A DNA stretch of 64,000 bases from Verrucomicrobiota bacterium (GTDB lineage: Bacteria > Verrucomicrobiota > Verrucomicrobiia > Chthoniobacterales > UBA6821), in contig JAIOPL010000013.1 in assembly GCA_021413925.1 (NCBI GenBank), positions 141,888 to 205,887 of the forward strand, read 5' to 3'. A model generated the notes under the pieces. That model ran no database searches. It had not been told where the DNA came from and worked only from the letters and a program-made list of their open reading frames with translations. Both the position numbers and the translations under genes were made by a program. Shown piece after piece: positions 2,620 to 7,705 of this stretch; the stretch's first letter is position 1, and every line of letters starts with the position of its first letter.

Positions 2620-3147
2620 ATGCAAGCCGACGATCTCCGAAGCGCGATCCGCTCGATCCCCGACTTTCCAAAGCCGGGCATTCTCTTTCGCGACATCTCA
2701 CCCGTGCTCGAGAGCGCGTCGCTTTTTCACGCCTCAATCGATCTCCTTGCTGCAGAGTGCGTGGATCTTGCACCTACAAAGGTTGTCGGCCTCGATGCGC
2801 GGGGGTTCATCTTCGGTGCCGCCCTGGCCTACAGGATCGGCGCGGGATTCGTTCCCGTCCGTAAGAAGGGGAAGCTCCCCTTCCGCACCATCTCCCATGC
2901 CTACGATCTCGAATACGGTTCCGCCGAATTCGAGATCCACTGCGACAGCATCCTTCCCGGTGAACCCGTCATCCTCGTGGATGACCTGCTTGCCACCGGG
3001 GGAACGGCCCGTGCGGCGCTTCACCTGCTGCGGCAGCTCGGGGCGAATGTCCTGAGGACGCTTTTCGTCGTGGAGCTGGAGGGTCTTGGCGGCCGTGATC
3101 AACTCGCCCCGATGGAAGTTTGCTCCCTCGTTCGGTTCAAAGAGTAA
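2620..3147 (+). CDS. apt: Adenine phosphoribosyltransferase
   Basis: Purine salvage enzyme: adenine plus PRPP gives AMP and pyrophosphate, in the cytosol. The family opening DFPKPGILFRDISPVL, the segment LDARGFIFG and the PRPP loop VILVDDLLATGGTA (about residues 116-129) are all intact in 175 residues. The ATG lies 21 bases after the phosphofructokinase stop on the same strand. It is the last conserved housekeeping gene before the cassette array that begins near 3277. Confidence 0.95.
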   Translation: MQADDLRSAIRSIPDFPKPGILFRDISPVLESASLFHASIDLLAAECVDLAPTKVVGLDARGFIFGAALAYRIGAGFVPVRKKGKLPFRTISHAYDLEYGSAEFEIHCDSILPGEPVILVDDLLATGGTARAALHLLRQLGANVLRTLFVVELEGLGGRDQLAPMEVCSLVRFKE

Positions 3148-3292
3148 TCGGAAGGCAGAAATTACGATGGAATGAAAAATGACTCTCCGCGATTTGACGG
3201 GGCGCCTATGAAGATGCCCCATCCAAAACAAATCTCTTCCATTAATGCAATAGAATGACACGTTGTCCCTAAATATGTTCGGCGGAAACATC

Positions 3293-3721
3293 ATGAAACT
3301 CCTCGCCCTCTTTGCCTCGCTCCTCGCAGTCTTACCGGCTCGTGGCGACTCCGGTGACGATACTCTGAAGTCTTTCCTGTCCAAGTCAGACCTCGTGGTG
3401 ATGGGCAAGATCACGTCCGAGCCGATTGGCATCATTTCCGAGTCGGGCGTTCCCAATTACATTTGTGAGTTTCGCGTTCAGGATGTTCTCAAGGGCGACG
3501 GCAAGCTGAAGGACCAAGTTCTCAAGGTCAACATCATGCGTTTCGAGATGGATGCTAAAGACAAGCATCCATTGATTAAGAAGGATGGCGAGTGCACTCT
3601 CTTCTTGAAGAGTGCCACACCGAACACTCCTGCGTGGGTCACGGCAGACTTTTGGTTTGGAGTGCAGCATCCGAGTCCTTGGATGGCGCGTTCCCTCAAG
3701 CGATTGGCCACAGAGAAATGA
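3293..3721 (+). CDS. Cassette 1: secreted hypothetical protein
   Basis: Not recognised. A 142-residue protein with a clear signal peptide (MKLLALFASLLAVLPARG) and a mature domain of alternating short strands ending in PSPWMARSLKRLATEK. The ATG at 3293 is chosen because it begins the signal peptide; upstream in-frame TTG (3263) and ATG (3275) would add a polar leader. A GTTCGGC lies 16 bases before the start, the same spacing as the other cassette junctions, and attC site 1 begins 2 bases after the stop. Confidence 0.75.
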   Translation: MKLLALFASLLAVLPARGDSGDDTLKSFLSKSDLVVMGKITSEPIGIISESGVPNYICEFRVQDVLKGDGKLKDQVLKVNIMRFEMDAKDKHPLIKKDGECTLFLKSATPNTPAWVTADFWFGVQHPSPWMARSLKRLATEK

Positions 3722-3722
3722 A

Positions 3723-3797
3723 GTCGAACAATACGATGGAGCTAACCGAGTCCCGCGCTGGCACGCGTGCCTCGGTAGCTCATCTTGAGCGTTAGGA
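3723..3797 (+). other. attC recombination site 1
   Basis: 75 bp. R'' GTCGAAC (3723-3729) and R' GTTAGGA (3791-3797) bound a hairpin. Left arm ATGGAGCTAACCGAG pairs with right arm CTCGGTAGCTCAT over 13 pairs, leaving two unpaired bases (a G and an A) on the left arm. Such extrahelical bases on one arm are the hallmark by which integron integrases pick the recombined strand. Confidence 0.85.
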
Positions 3798-3812
3798 AAA
3801 GAATACTTCCCA

Positions 3813-4226
3813 ATGCACTTGCTCAGATTTCCACGAATCACAGCGCTAGGGATCGTTTTTTTTAGTTTTCTGCTTCTGATTTGGTCAACAGGTGATTTGG
3901 ACAGGCCCTTTTCATGGGATATGGTCAGCCGCTACTTCAACATTTTGTTCGCAATTATTTTAGCACCATCCTTCGCACTGTTTTTTATGCTCCCCGGAAT
4001 GTCAAAGTGTAGGAGTTCATCTATCGCGAGTATCACAGTATGGATCATCTTGGCGGCTTTTGTTTTAACTTTTGTTGTTACTGCTATAACTGTGCAAGCT
4101 TTGGCCTCGACAACTGCGTTAGCCGGACTTTTTTATTTTCTTGGAGTCGGCATCCAGACTGCCCTCTTGCTATTGCTGTTATATACTTGGATTCGAGAAG
4201 CATTCTTTCAACCAAAGCGATTCTGA
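3813..4226 (+). CDS. Cassette 2: small integral membrane protein
   Basis: Not recognised. 137 residues with about four hydrophobic helices (roughly 10-27, 42-62, 72-95 and 100-125) and a basic C-terminus (FFQPKRF), consistent with an inner-membrane protein. The sequence is AT-rich compared with flanking chromosomal genes and uses codons such as TTT, ATT and TTA freely, which fits foreign cassette DNA. It starts 22 bases after the GTT of attC site 1 and is followed by attC site 2. Confidence 0.75.
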   Translation: MHLLRFPRITALGIVFFSFLLLIWSTGDLDRPFSWDMVSRYFNILFAIILAPSFALFFMLPGMSKCRSSSIASITVWIILAAFVLTFVVTAITVQALASTTALAGLFYFLGVGIQTALLLLLLYTWIREAFFQPKRF

Positions 4227-4252
4227 CTTTGGAGAGCCTCAAAAGGAAACAA

Positions 4253-4313
4253 TCCGAACAAAATCAGACCAGCCAACCTCGCTGCGCTCGGCGGCTGACT
4301 TCGAGCGTTCGGA
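4253..4313 (+). other. attC recombination site 2
   Basis: 61 bp, the most compact site. R'' TCCGAAC (4253-4259) and R' GTTCGGA (4307-4313) are perfectly complementary. The inner arms are built on TCAG...AGCC and GGCGGCTGA with mismatches, closing on a short GC-rich loop. The next ORF starts 13 bases after the GTT. Confidence 0.85.
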
Positions 4314-4319
4314 ATAAAT

Positions 4320-4781
4320 ATGCCTATTATTTCCCTATTTTTTGCAGTTTTCATTCTTGCCGGTGGAATCATGGCAGGATTTGGAGTTCGCAATATTGTT
4401 CACGCCTACGACAGTAGAAGTTGGCCTCATACAAATGGGACTGTTATATACTCGGAAGTCGAGCGTCGCTCCGGCAGTAAACGTGGCTCATCCTATTCTC
4501 CCGGAATCAAATACTCATATTTTATCCAAGGACAACAATACGAGGGAGATATAGTTGCCTTTGGCATGAAGAGCGTTTCAGCAGGACGGGGATTTGCTGA
4601 GCGATTTGTAAAGAAGTATCCAAAAGGGAAAGATATCAAAGTATTCTACGATCCCTCAGTGATGTCCACATCGGTCCTGGAGCCCGGCTTATCGAAGCGT
4701 AGTTTTATTCTTTTTGCTTTTGGGATGTCTTTTATGATTTTCGGAATTTGCTTTGCGACAGTTGCTTGGCTTTTCAAATAA
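4320..4781 (+). CDS. Cassette 3: DUF3592-type membrane protein
   Basis: 153 residues with one N-terminal (about 4-25) and one C-terminal (about 127-150) transmembrane helix around a soluble domain. The domain pattern W-x-x-x-x-G-T-V, then IKYSYFIQGQQYEG, then YPKGKDIKVFYDPS and VLEPG matches the DUF3592 family, whose biochemical role is not known. The start ATG is 13 bases after attC site 2. The domain call rests on this recalled pattern; the cassette location is read directly. Confidence 0.8.
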   Translation: MPIISLFFAVFILAGGIMAGFGVRNIVHAYDSRSWPHTNGTVIYSEVERRSGSKRGSSYSPGIKYSYFIQGQQYEGDIVAFGMKSVSAGRGFAERFVKKYPKGKDIKVFYDPSVMSTSVLEPGLSKRSFILFAFGMSFMIFGICFATVAWLFK

Positions 4782-4789
4782 CAAATACA

Positions 4790-4859
4790 TTCGAACAATG
4801 CGATCCACCGAACACTTACCCGCGTCACGGGCAGGAGCCGGTGATCGGGGACGTTAGCA
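4790..4859 (+). other. attC recombination site 3
   Basis: 70 bp. R'' TTCGAAC (4790-4796) and R' GTTAGCA (4853-4859). Left arm CGATCCACCG pairs with right arm CGGTGATCG, leaving one unpaired C on the left arm. The ORF of cassette 4 begins 14 bases after the GTT. Confidence 0.82.
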
Positions 4860-4866
4860 AAACAAT

Positions 4867-5580
4867 ATGATAAACCTAACACGCATCATCGCAATTTCAC
4901 TCGGCATTTTCCCTATTGCCCTTCTGGCACAACCGACTTCTCCAGAGGAATTCATTGCAGCCTACCGCACGGCGATGCAAGAAAGAAGCGCCGAGAAGCT
5001 CAACCCCCTCACTTATTCCGAAGGCATGAGTGAAGCAGACAAACAACAAGCTACCCAAGTCCAACAGATGATATTCACAGACAAGGAGATCGATTCAATT
5101 ACCCTCGTACCCCTGCCAGCGGATTTTTCGACCGTGTTTATCCAGCGGGGCAAGAAAATCGAGCCGACATATACGCCAATTGGACTTATCCAGACCAAAT
5201 ATAAAGACGCGGGCAATGGGATGAACTCTACAAGTGCACCGTATGCTGTGATTGACGGAAAGTATTTTCTCATTTCCAGCAAAAGCACCGACCTGGGATG
5301 GAGCGGCCCTCCTGATAAGACCATCACTTTCATGGTCATGGGGCGAGGGCAGAACAAGGTTCAGATAAAGGCGAAGTGGAATGCCAGCGGAGTTGATCAA
5401 GAGCGCATATTCAAGTCGCCATCATCAAATTTCATGGGACAGTTTTTTGAGGAAGTAACGGTCACGAGCGCTGAGGATGATACGGATGTCACTCTTACTA
5501 TTCTTGAAGACGGAAAGAAGATCTTTCAGTCTGAACCACTAAAAGGCAAAGGAACCCTTGAATACAAAAGAGAAAGCTAA
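4867..5580 (+). CDS. Cassette 4: secreted hypothetical protein
   Basis: Not recognised. 237 residues with a signal peptide (MINLTRIIAISLGIFPIALLAQ, probable cleavage after LLA). The mature part starts TSPEEFIAAYRTAMQERSAE, a helical opening followed by a mainly beta region (TVTSAEDDTDVTLTILEDG near the end). No catalytic motif is visible. Its stop codon overlaps the R'' of attC site 4 (AGCTAAC), leaving no spacer between gene and recombination site. Confidence 0.75.
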   Translation: MINLTRIIAISLGIFPIALLAQPTSPEEFIAAYRTAMQERSAEKLNPLTYSEGMSEADKQQATQVQQMIFTDKEIDSITLVPLPADFSTVFIQRGKKIEPTYTPIGLIQTKYKDAGNGMNSTSAPYAVIDGKYFLISSKSTDLGWSGPPDKTITFMVMGRGQNKVQIKAKWNASGVDQERIFKSPSSNFMGQFFEEVTVTSAEDDTDVTLTILEDGKKIFQSEPLKGKGTLEYKRES

Positions 5581-5692
5581 CGAGCGCATGCACCTAATCC
5601 CTACCCACCGTCACGCCGGATGCTGGCTCCGCTTCACTGCGCTGGCATCCGTCGCGCCAGCGGTCCGGGATAGGTGATGTGGGACGTTCTGC
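5575..5692 (+). other. attC recombination site 4 (long)
   Basis: 118 bp. R'' AGCTAAC (5575-5581, containing the stop codon of cassette 4) and R' GTTCTGC (5686-5692). Left arm CACCTAATCCC pairs with right arm GGGATAGGTG with one unpaired A on the left arm. The large variable terminal structure carries its own inner palindrome (CGGATGC / GCATCCG). Confidence 0.8.
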
Positions 5693-5698
5693 GATAAA

Positions 5699-6028
5699 AT
5701 GAAAACCATCATATTTGCGATTTTATCCGCTTATCTGATGTCGACAATTCTTGTTGAGGCAAAGGACGCTTCGGTTCCGTCTAGTCAGCCAGATTTATCA
5801 ATCTTAACTTCCATAGACCACATCCAGAAGTTCATTGCGGGAAAAACAAAACAAGATTATTCGAAAATGAAGCTAACAAGGATTTCATCAGAATATTGCA
5901 ATGGAGTTCCACGAAAAGGCGCTGCCTATGTCTACTATTTTAACAGTACTACACTCGGAATTATGAGTGCATTATGTATTTACCACTTTGCTGATGGTGT
6001 GATCATTGAAACGGCTACCGGAGGGTAA
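5699..6028 (+). CDS. Cassette 5: secreted hypothetical protein
   Basis: Not recognised. 109 residues with a signal peptide (MKTIIFAILSAYLMSTILVEA). The mature part has two cysteines (SEYCNG and ALCIYH) that could form a disulfide. AT-rich coding sequence. It starts 13 bases after the GTT of attC site 4. Its own downstream site is degraded. Confidence 0.72.
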   Translation: MKTIIFAILSAYLMSTILVEAKDASVPSSQPDLSILTSIDHIQKFIAGKTKQDYSKMKLTRISSEYCNGVPRKGAAYVYYFNSTTLGIMSALCIYHFADGVIIETATGG

Positions 6029-6072
6029 GCCGATCGCGATTTCTACTCATACAACTTAAACCAAAAATTGCA

Positions 6073-6217
6073 GTACAAGACGAAGGAGCTAACCGTCCAC
6101 AGCGCGGCTGTTTCAAGGGAGGCCAAGAATGATTAAATTACAATCATGCCAAAGCCATGCGCCGCTTCCAGTGGTCGGCAGCGCATCTCCACGTTCGGCG
6201 ACAGCGGAGCGTTCCGT
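6073..6217 (+). other. Degenerate attC site(s) 5
   Basis: At 6085-6095 GGAGCTAACCG copies the left arm of attC site 1, but no matching right arm follows. Further on, a second half-site holds ATGCGC / GCGCAT arms (about 6157-6188) and two possible R' boxes, GTTCGGC (6193) and GTTCCGT (6211). I read this as one or two decayed sites fused end to end. Exact limits are uncertain. Confidence 0.45.
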
Positions 6218-6238
6218 CACATTCACCGTCAAATAGAC

Positions 6239-6592
6239 ATGAAAAGGATCATCGGTTTCCTGTTCATTACGTTTGCGTCGTTGGTTCTGGCAGCCGACGC
6301 AGTTCCGACAAACAAGTATTCACTCTCGGTTGGGCGTGTTTATGAGTCGAAGCCTGAGCGCCCTGAATGGGTGTTCATCTTCGGCGGCACGAGCGCCATT
6401 CGTGGTGGCGAGACCGTGTGCCTGAGTCCTGAGACGTTGAAGAAGCTTTTCAAAGGTTTGCCGCGTGGTTCGACCTTGGATTGCTGGCCTACGTGCGATG
6501 GGGAGTCTGAGGCGCTGGCAGGTCATCTGGACGATTTGAAGAAGATTTGCACGGAGGCCGGCATCGTGTTCACCATTCATCCCGCAGGATGA
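6239..6592 (+). CDS. Cassette 6: secreted hypothetical protein
   Basis: Not recognised. 117 residues. The ATG at 6239 begins a signal peptide (MKRIIGFLFITFASLVLAAD); an in-frame ATG at 6146 lies inside the decayed attC region and is rejected. The mature domain contains a C-x9-C-x3-C type spread (VCLSPETL, LDCWPTCDG, KKICTEAG) that suggests disulfides. It is followed 10 bases later by attC site 6. Confidence 0.72.
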   Translation: MKRIIGFLFITFASLVLAADAVPTNKYSLSVGRVYESKPERPEWVFIFGGTSAIRGGETVCLSPETLKKLFKGLPRGSTLDCWPTCDGESEALAGHLDDLKKICTEAGIVFTIHPAG

Positions 6593-6602
6593 GCGTGATG
6601 CT

Positions 6603-6698
6603 GCCGAACAAGATCACTGGACCGAATGCGGGCGGGCCGCGTCAGTTTCGAATTCGGATGTCACTGGCCGCCCGCGGCGGACAGTTCTGTCGTTAGAG
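6603..6698 (+). other. attC recombination site 6
   Basis: 96 bp. R'' GCCGAAC (6603-6609) and R' GTTAGAG (6692-6698). Left arm GCGGGCGGGCC pairs with right arm GGCCGCCCGC, leaving one unpaired G on the left arm. It is the last clear site of the array. Confidence 0.82.
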
Positions 6699-6720
6699 CC
6701 TTGAAAGGGTTGTCTCCAAA

Positions 6721-6837
6721 ATGATGCTATTGCCCAACTGCGGAGCCATTGTGACCGCAGTGCTCGGCTGCCTCGGTCTGCTATTCCCGAGTGCCGTGGG
6801 CCGCGTTCTTGGCATCGAGCTGAGTCGGACAATCTGA
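6721..6837 (+). CDS. Cassette 7 remnant: 38-residue hydrophobic ORF
   Basis: A short ORF starting 29 bases after the GTT of attC site 6. It encodes one hydrophobic segment (GAIVTAVLGCLGLLFPSAVG) and ends at TGA 6835. No attC site follows, so this is probably the start of a last cassette whose remainder was lost, or a real one-helix protein. Only its position and hydrophobicity support it. Confidence 0.4.
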   Translation: MMLLPNCGAIVTAVLGCLGLLFPSAVGRVLGIELSRTI

Positions 6838-7048
6838 AAATCATCCTCGGTTCGCCCACGAAACCAAGGACTCGGTTTTAAACATCCCTTTTATCCCCTT
6901 GGCTGGCCCGGCCGTTGCTCCGCATCCGTTACGGATCCCTGTAAAAATCTTCAACTTCTTCACCCATCGGTGATCGTGTTCCTCATGCAATCTTTGGGTT
7001 AATTTGCCCCCCGGATCACCCAAGGGCCTATTCCCGAGATCCGATAAC
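6838..7048. other. Gene-free right flank of the cassette array
   Basis: About 210 bases between the last cassette remnant and the convergent PAP2 gene. It contains a GCATCCGTTACGG word (near 6922) shared with 57400 and 61916, and a TATCCCCTATCCCC word family (near 7040) that recurs near 35190 and, in inverse form, near 59215. No ORF, tRNA or clear terminator was seen. Confidence 0.5.
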
Positions 7049-7705
7049 CTATCCCCTATCCCCAAAATCAACCCGGCCCCGGCGGCCGAGGAATTCCCAT
7101 ACCAGCCAGGCGATCCCCAAGGCCACGGTTGCGGCGGTGATCACATCCGATGGGTGGTGGGCGCCGAGCAGAATGCGGGAGATCGCAACGGCAGATGCCA
7201 CAACGATGGCTAGCAAGCCCCACTCTGGGGCAGCAAAAAGGAAAACTCCCGCGAAGCCGAAGGCGGTAGCCGTGTGGCCCGAGGGGAAGCTGTTGAAGTC
7301 GGCTTCGCCGATCAGCCATTTCTCACCGTTTTTAGGTCCATACCATCCCTGTTCCGCAACAGCCCTGGGGCGGGTTCTGCCGGTGGTCAGACGTGAGAGA
7401 TTTATCGTCATGCCCGCTAGCGTGGAGGCAATCATTGCCGCGAGGATCATGCGCTGCCAACGGACATTGCGCAGACGCCAGGCCACTAGGAAACCAATGC
7501 CTCCAAGCACCATCAGCTCTGGCCAGTCTCCGTAGCGACTCAGCAGCTCCGCTACGGGTTTGTGTTTCCAGTGACCGTGATGGGAAGCCTGCACCAATTT
7601 GGAGACGGGATCATCCAGCAGGAAAGATCCTGCAATCGCCACAATCGCGATCAGAAGGTAGAATGAGACCTTCAGCAGAGAATTTTTAGGAATCGGAAAA
7701 TTCAT
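7049..7705 (-). CDS. PAP2-family membrane phosphatase
   Basis: Integral-membrane lipid phosphatase of the type 2 phosphatidic acid phosphatase family, 218 residues with about five to six helices. The three family motifs are complete: R-x6-RP (RLTTGRTRP), PSGH (FPSGHTATAF) and SR-x5-H-x3-D (SRILLGAHHPSD). Likely substrates are undecaprenyl diphosphate, phosphatidate or a lipid A phosphate; sequence alone does not decide. It converges on the cassette array and has no operon partner. Confidence 0.88.
   Translation of the reverse strand: MNFPIPKNSLLKVSFYLLIAIVAIAGSFLLDDPVSKLVQASHHGHWKHKPVAELLSRYGDWPELMVLGGIGFLVAWRLRNVRWQRMILAAMIASTLAGMTINLSRLTTGRTRPRAVAEQGWYGPKNGEKWLIGEADFNSFPSGHTATAFGFAGVFLFAAPEWGLLAIVVASAVAISRILLGAHHPSDVITAATVALGIAWLVWEFLGRRGRVDFGDRG

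Follow-up and report, generated by a model that had tools for sequence, protein, structure and literature searches.

The window analysed here, i.e., the whole stretch of 64,000 nucleotides, lies on contig C13 of a 2.4-Mb MAG (G000, 95.5% complete) and carries, between apt and a PAP2-family phosphatase gene, six complete integron cassettes (3277-6692) followed by a truncated seventh, all on the + strand (Table 1). We consider this array very probably to be a decayed chromosomal integron in which an attI leads six complete cassettes and a final truncated one; the locus lacks an integrase, and none that is intact was found in the genome. It is a CALIN with an attI, one among several dispersed integrase-less attI platforms, and of the integrase that once existed, all that is left is a remnant in another part of the genome. 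The array itself is confirmed as a real feature, borne out by attC models and by the differing content of relatives, and the original prediction of an integrase-less cassette array is supported. Two of its details needed amendment. Seven genes had been counted, of which six belong to complete cassettes while the seventh is only a 38-aa 5' fragment of a DUF4345 cassette; and the AT-richness ascribed to the genes holds for the array as a whole (GC 0.486, vs 0.600 on both flanks) and for cassettes 2-5 (GC 0.43-0.49) but not for cassettes 1 and 6 (0.54 and 0.57).

Table 1. Features of the apt-PAP2 locus (positions in the window)
Feature	Position	Strand	Description	Evidence
apt	2620..3147	+	Adenine phosphoribosyltransferase; left core-gene flank	ORF; present in 16/16 genus genomes
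attI	3227..3277	+	Conserved leader up to G^TT; cut between 3277 and 3278	Homology to C32 attI
Cassette 1	3278..3791	+	Gene 3293-3721, 142 aa; predicted signal peptide	ORF, boundary analysis, Kyte-Doolittle/inspection
attC 1	3723..3797 (R2 match 3723-3798)	+	Two extrahelical bases	R1 E 3.2e-5; R2 E 2.9e-8
Cassette 2	3792..4307	+	Gene 3813-4226, 137 aa; four predicted membrane segments	ORF, boundary analysis, Kyte-Doolittle/inspection
attC 2	4253..4313 (R2 match 4253-4314)	+		R1 E 3.8e-4; R2 E 5.9e-5
Cassette 3	4308..4853	+	Gene 4320-4781, 153 aa; DUF3592 membrane protein, two predicted segments	Pfam 2.4e-15; copy in G081:C44
attC 3	4790..4859 (R2 match 4790-4860)	+		R2 E 2.3e-5
Cassette 4	4854..5686	+	Gene 4867-5580, 237 aa; predicted signal peptide	ORF, boundary analysis, Kyte-Doolittle/inspection
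attC 4	5575..5692 (R2 match 5576-5693)	+	Long; two extrahelical bases	R2 E 1.1e-3
Cassette 5	5687..6193	+	Gene 5699-6028, 109 aa; predicted signal peptide	ORF, boundary analysis, Kyte-Doolittle/inspection
attC 5	6070..6199 (R2 match 6070-6200)	+	Degenerate	R2 E 0.79 (weak); R'' GCAGTAC vs own R' GTTCTGC 6/7
Cassette 6	6194..6692	+	Gene 6239-6592, 117 aa from that start; predicted signal peptide	ORF, boundary analysis, Kyte-Doolittle/inspection
attC 6	6603..6698 (R2 match 6603-6699)	+		R2 E 5.6e-4; R'' vs own R' 7/7
Truncated cassette 7	6693..6838	+	DUF4345 cassette 5' fragment, 38 codons (6721-6837); attC absent	90% identity to intact G081 cassettes
PAP2 gene	7049..7705	-	PAP2-family phosphatase; right flank	Pfam PAP2 1.2e-22; present in 16/16 genus genomes

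Two covariance models, built from sites outside the array, recovered the attC junctions. With R1 (10 class-1 plasmid attCs plus five from the genus, none from the array locus), three array junctions rank first in the window, and nothing else in the 2.4-Mb genome matches the model at E<=10; R1 is insensitive, having missed the attC on contig C32. With R2, built on 29 attCs of relatives and on none of the window's own, the five best matches in 64 kb fall on five of the six cassette ends (E 3e-8 to 1e-3), i.e., five attCs at E <= 1.1e-3 cluster within 3 kb, all in + orientation, where a CALIN calls for at least two. The one-sided unpaired bases that had been noticed by eye are real at attC 1 (ATGGAGCTAACCGAG against ATGAGCTACCGAG) and attC 4 (CATGCACCTAATCCC against CATCACCTATCCC), as read from the sequence. 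A two-box scan requiring R''/R' complementarity within the array missed the sites because the two boxes of a junction come from different cassettes, and a test of each R'' box against the R' of its own cassette was therefore devised. This pairing matches at 37/42 positions, vs 28/42 against the following box, and 6/5040 permutations were equally good. Together with shared cassettes bounded by G^TT, it identifies excisable units, in each of which the 5' bases of the cassette itself complete the attC. In a stem-strength control that is only partly discriminating, attC 1 and attC 6 exceeded all 274 control pairs and attC 2 did not; an Rfam search of the window returned no match.

The products of all six complete cassettes look exported or membrane-bound. 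Calls made by inspection and a Kyte-Doolittle scan agree with the four signal-peptide proteins (cassettes 1, 4, 5, and 6) and two membrane proteins (cassettes 2 and 3) originally described, and these predicted features are compatible with the suggestion that the array serves mostly envelope functions. Also as proposed, the proteins are unrecognised apart from the DUF3592 member (cassette 3); searches of Pfam, PHROGs, NCBIfam, and PADLOC gave nothing further. AlphaFold models were too poor for structure search (mean pLDDT 45 for cassette 4 and 38 for cassette 1), no convincing solved-structure relative was found for cassette 1, and its possible relatives in other arrays share only 26-29% identity over a gappy alignment. 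The terminal DUF4345 cassette is intact (114 aa) in G081 and truncated in G090 as in G000, with homology beginning at G^TTAGAG in four copies.

As in a complete integron, an attI precedes the first cassette, recognised here by sequence homology only; this putative site is an addition to the original prediction, in which it went unnoticed. Without gaps it matches the C32 attI at 41/53 positions, both ending at G^TT (0/20000 shuffles equal). The motif occurs at no fewer than 17 loci in seven genomes of the genus, with none in a reversed control: at least four in G000 and three or four each in G069, G081, and G094. Its sequence is far better conserved than its left flanks. The apt copy departs from the attI consensus, and G^TT is lost in the G081 and G090 copies. 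The consensus contains a TTGCAA-18-TAAAAT match; at the array, a sigma-70 consensus scan gave promoters and terminators in no greater number than in shuffles. The palindrome TAGAATGACATGTCATTCTA of attI was considered as a general regulator site (e.g., a LexA box), a reading left unsupported because within two mismatches it occurs at only two attI loci in all of G000.

Relatives show that the apt-PAP2 interval is variable. In 11/16 genus genomes, the apt and PAP2 matches are only ~30-190 bp apart (an empty site), whereas G000, G081, and G090 carry differing cassettes there. The gene order that a conserved operon should keep among relatives is thus absent, the locus being empty or different across the genus. 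Neither observation that would tell against the predicted array, i.e., a lack of covariance-model attCs or a gene order fixed as a block, was made: attCs are detected, cassette content differs between related genomes, and order is not conserved. Cassette 3 recurs in another array (G081:C44) at 96.6% identity, starting at G^TT. PFK is ~82% identical between the genomes sharing this 97%-identical cassette; integrase activity would therefore have persisted somewhere until recently, and cassette movement is, by this sequence measure, apparently recent. Moreover, apt switches from G057-like to G081-like sequence at a breakpoint inside the gene (~2650-2800), and PAP2 and the gene downstream are G057/G069-like; by these affinities, the apt-array block is a recombination mosaic.

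That the window holds no integrase was upheld by profile search: TIGR02249 (integron integrase) has no match on contig C13, window included. The genome-wide intI search proposed alongside the prediction yields, in G000, no intact integron integrase and one remnant on C32, where a second array has its attI beside an internally deleted integrase gene. Full-length relatives in G000 are XerC/XerD-like only, and a fragment on contig C5 that resembles an integrase comes from a different tyrosine recombinase. Intact integron integrases were likewise not found in G081 or G090, and none of the attI-motif loci examined has one alongside. Of the functional intI beside attI that marks a complete integron, the window has none and G000 only the C32 remnant. 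The long-form integrase of the array-attI family (~460-480 aa in the order's other families) is truncated or stop-riddled in every genus copy seen; where an integrase is intact in the genus, it is of a shorter type, with a differing attI of its own. G094 has three array-type attI loci and, on a different contig, an intact integrase.

An integron integrase once captured circular cassettes through attC x attI recombination at G^TT, and the junctions record the resulting row of genes on one strand. The long-form enzyme has since been lost in the copies seen; it would formerly have stood at, or served, the apt-PAP2 locus, where attI and cassettes are what remains. Homologous recombination inside apt then brought the 3' half of that gene, the attI, and probably the array into this lineage, with a G081-like donor as the source; the left breakpoint of this transfer is visible, and the right one is presumed. 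Expression of the cassettes would probably depend on a promoter inside attI or on readthrough out of apt, and their products would be exported or membrane proteins. Without an integrase acting in trans, the array should be frozen, changing only through homologous recombination, deletion, or IS insertion. Several observations count against a decayed integron: (i) an integrase might be absent from the data because G000 is an incomplete MAG; (ii) G000 and G090 differ in content at the locus; (iii) cassette 3 moved recently when gauged against PFK; (iv) attC 5 is degenerate; (v) the apt attI is off consensus; and (vi) G^TT is lost in G081 and G090.

A live platform, in which an integrase that the MAG lacks or that is periodically imported acts in trans on several attI sites of one genome, is possible but unlikely. 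The multiplicity of attI loci per genome, the conservation of attI relative to its flanks, the arrangement in G094, and the different cassettes at one locus in three genomes would all suit such a multi-site integron. Against it, G000, G081, and G090 have no intact integrase; the intact enzymes of the genus are shorter and have a differing attI, and an attI paired with a non-cognate IntI generally works inefficiently (PMC8946536); drift is under way in the apt attIs; and array swapping at the locus is explicable by homologous recombination. It is equally doubtful that the genus as a whole runs a multi-platform integron, with attI copies lacking an adjacent integrase, one integrase acting in trans, and cassettes placeable at several loci.

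Improbable, in turn, is off-target capture at a random attG-like non-att site between apt and PAP2 where no attI was ever present. This is one proposed origin of CALINs (PMC8618304) and would suit a locus without an integrase remnant, but the attI of C32 and those of 16 other loci share homology, and the same G^TT end, with the 50 bp leading into cassette 1. An ordinary operon of small genes with merely attC-like intergenic hairpins would fit the same-strand genes, the commonness of such hairpins, and the unremarkable attC 2 stem, and it is refuted, to a degree that leaves it scarcely credible, by the independent attC models, the own-R' permutation, the G^TT-bounded shared cassettes, and the finding that the locus is empty or differently filled in relatives. 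G000 is a MAG, and assemblies are often broken or confused by arrays (PMC9024848), but an assembly or binning artefact splicing in another organism's cassettes is just as implausible, given arrays with the same leader at this locus in G081 (on one contig) and G090 (on both sides of a contig break) and a left flank continuous through apt.

A decayed integron at this locus bears on a common class of element: CALINs are about as numerous as complete integrons (2961 vs 2760; PMC9024848), and ideas on their origin have mostly been guesswork, since recognition of attI outside class 1 is rare. In this one genus, attI is recognisable at 17 or more loci, and the integrase may be absent, fragmentary, stop-riddled, or intact but of another type, so that both an origin through integrase loss and the spread of the platform become testable. 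The locus also points to a way for such an array to cross from one species to another, namely homologous recombination within a core gene at its flank, with no integrase needed.

By the IntegronFinder definition (at least two same-orientation attCs, no nearby intI), the array is a CALIN, differing in its attI homologous to copies elsewhere; CALINs are usually described without attI, and IntegronFinder detects none outside class 1 (PMC9024848). Class 1 integrons (attI1, IntI1) are alike in the R/L boxes and extrahelical bases of attC and in the attI right end, which here resembles theirs with a CTAAAA...G^TT simple site, whereas our array has no integrase, unrelated cassettes, no recognised resistance genes, and a different left part of attI. 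Integrons of the genus with an intact shorter IntI (G102:C123, G075:C154) share related attC sites and show the classical divergent intI and cassettes; unlike our array, they have an integrase of ~330-340 aa, and their attI and chromosomal loci differ. The Xanthomonas chromosomal integrons (PMC12444791) likewise combine lost or truncated integrases with persisting arrays and have integrase-less arrays at several chromosomal loci. There the platform is at one locus (ilvD), and attI is not described at the other CALINs in the part of the account drawn on here, whereas in our genus one attI family occupies many loci, with at least some copies beside the core genes apt and rfaD.

The interval between apt and the convergent PAP2 gene holds six complete small genes and a seventh, truncated DUF4345 cassette, all on one strand; of the seven consecutive genes in the original prediction, six thus stand and the last is only a fragment. 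In real cassettes, the 3′ R″ box should match the R′ box at the 5′ end of its own cassette, since both formed one site in the cassette circle, the R′ box next along the array being part of the following cassette. Here, R″ matched its own R′ at 37 of 42 bases versus 28 of 42 for the following R′; across permuted R″/R′ assignments, 37 was reached by 6 of 5040 and exceeded by none, the boxes having been picked by eye beforehand, such that the test is not fully blind.

Positions of the array, its flanks and related features (window, G000:C13:141888-205887; G000, source genome; other G handles, genomes of the same order, with G036-G130 belonging to its genus except where noted; C, contig; L, extracted stretch)
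Feature	Position	Remark
apt	2620-3147 (window)	left flank
G^TT cores	3277, 3791, 4307, 4853, 5686, 6193, 6692 (window)	
Degenerate cassette end	6070-6200 (window)	R2 E 0.79
GC-rich dispersed repeat	6884-6952 (window)	right end of array
PAP2 gene	7049-7705 (window)	convergent, right flank
Second attI-led array	G000:C32:43746-44080 (L148 3746-4080)	beside internally deleted integrase gene
Near-perfect palindrome	G000:C32:43750-43769	within attI
Further attI copies	G000:C21:968 (L153), G000:C1:10358 (L154)	more diverged
Phage-type tyrosine recombinase gene	L006 (G000:C5:1-1921)	contig end
Transposase-like gene	L030 1-1150 (G090:C9), L029 1-40 (G090:C19)	contig end

Two attC covariance models ranked the junctions first, in keeping with the attC-like sites originally described between the genes. 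R1 (ten class-1 plasmid attCs and five genus-integron attCs, none of this locus) gave array junctions as its top three window matches, and these were its only matches at E<=10 across G000; it overlooks the C32 attC, so absence of attCs elsewhere in G000 cannot be claimed from it. R2, from 29 attCs of relatives, placed five of the six cassette ends at ranks 1-5 in the window, the remaining end being degenerate. Paired cells in its alignment amounted to 88.6% versus 73.7% in shuffles, and double changes to 60 versus 20.6, both figures being biased upwards since the alignment had been fitted to structure. The GC-rich repeat at the array's right-hand end (core GGCCGTTGCTCCGCATCCGTTACGGATC) also occurs in G090 and close to attI of G081:C44 and C35.

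By inspection and Kyte-Doolittle scan, cassette proteins 1, 4, 5 and 6 have predicted signal peptides and proteins 2 and 3 membrane segments, as first proposed, and Pfam recognises only DUF3592 among them, again as expected. Signal peptides occur in 10-30% of cassettes (review, PMC8618304), against which six of six predicted exported or membrane proteins is high, albeit in a small sample.

The 50 bp ahead of cassette 1 match the leader of the C32 array (41/53, ungapped, same G^TT end), a match equalled by 0 of 20000 shuffles; by this homology, the leader is a putative attI. Seven of the 16 genus genomes carry its motif, at 17 places in total (reversed control, 0); in a search of 213 genomes of the order, a stricter version did not occur outside this genus. 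Nine loci keep the integrase 5′ side; the other eight, the three apt arrays among them, have only attI, and their left flanks are unrelated (0.49 mean conservation, versus 0.77 for attI). No intact integrase adjoined this attI at any locus examined. The palindrome, TAGAATGACATGTCATTCTA in the consensus, overlaps a possible promoter (TTGCAA-18-TAAAAT), lies just upstream of the integrase start and is possibly an operator or integrase-binding repeat.

At C32, the N-terminus and the last 22-25 codons of a long-form integrase are joined in a 90-codon open frame, whose N-terminal portion aligns with intact 460-480-aa IntIs from other families of the order, in the stretch immediately preceding their TIGR02249 matches. 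The C32 cassettes include a YefM/YoeB-type toxin-antitoxin pair common to the G081 apt array. The C21 and C1 attI copies precede cassette-like genes with attC-like ends (model support weak); the C21 cassette (RelB/RelE-like pair) is found also in G090:C113, and a site behind rfaD is common to G000:C1 and G081:C108.

Beyond the window, for which the lack of an integrase was first noted, nothing in G000 (a metagenome-assembled genome of 2.4 Mb in 32 contigs, 95.5% complete) exceeded the 265-bit TIGR02249 cut-off either. The best single match scored 76 bits, and both full-length genes underlying the top matches resemble XerC/XerD. The phage-type tyrosine recombinase gene in the table is apparently frameshift-split. 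All long-form integrase copies found in the genus are truncated or stop-containing. G090 retains an integrase C-terminus of ~113 aa beside attCs; intact shorter integrases occur in G075, G094 and G102 (two of three checked). Integron integrases exceed the cut-off in 65 of 197 genomes of the order, and integrons are thus native to it. N-terminally extended forms (~460-570 aa) are common in several of its families (e.g., G105:C43, G033:C107, G018:C38).

Among the 16 genus genomes, all drafts or MAGs, apt and PAP2 are always present, and adjacent in all 15 having both on one contig. Comparison of relatives revealed the anticipated cassette change, with the locus empty or differently filled: (i) the apt and PAP2 matches lie ~30-190 bp apart in 11 genomes; (ii) the gaps of G075 (359 bp) and G094 (972 bp), read by eye, displayed nothing cassette-like; (iii) in the closest named record retrieved, that of 'uncultured Spartobacteria bacterium isolate C24_bin-1875' (PFK 93% aa), both genes are adjacent without an array; (iv) the 3.66-kb G081 gap carries one TauE/SafE cassette, two DUF4345 cassettes and one with the toxin-antitoxin pair; and (v) G090 (PFK DNA 97% identical) has an assembly break inside the locus, the visible part containing a cassette unlike those of G000 and a transposase-like gene. 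The latter lies at the contig end splitting the array, which is thus probably interrupted by an insertion sequence. Only the terminal cassette is common to arrays at apt; in four copies, whose left neighbours differ, its homology starts at G^TTAGAG. Cassette 3 has a counterpart of 96.6% identity (524 nt) in another array, G081:C44; the match starts at the G^TT boundary and the neighbours differ, despite only 81.5% PFK identity between these genomes.

The window shares 93-98% identity with G057 up to ~2650, a point within apt; at ~2800-3056, it is 96% identical to G081, while G057 drops to 64-68%. Further upstream, G081 identity is 67-87%. Resemblance to G057/G069 (89-94%) returns in PAP2 and the gene after it. 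The switch within apt is sharp (window 2620-3276), the 5′ half being G057-like and the 3′ half and leader G081-like. From these alignments, apt reads as a recombinant core gene, and the switches indicate that a G081-like donor gave the apt 3′ half, attI and, probably, the array by homologous recombination. This also constitutes a route for swapping arrays without integrase, which may explain the difference between the G000 and G090 arrays.

In the open-licence literature, we found no description of one genome carrying a single attI at several scattered loci that lack an integrase. Verrucomicrobiota integrons and three proposed origins of CALINs (attC clusters lacking an integron-integrase) are already known (PMC8618304). 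For Xanthomonas, PMC12444791 describes arrays that persist after loss of the integrase, CALINs at multiple loci and mobilisation in trans. Minimal attI sequences have been reported (PMC12901181). The consensus right end of the genus attI, CTAAAATACG^TTAGC, is similar to that of class-1 attI, CCCTAAAACAAAG^TTAGGC.
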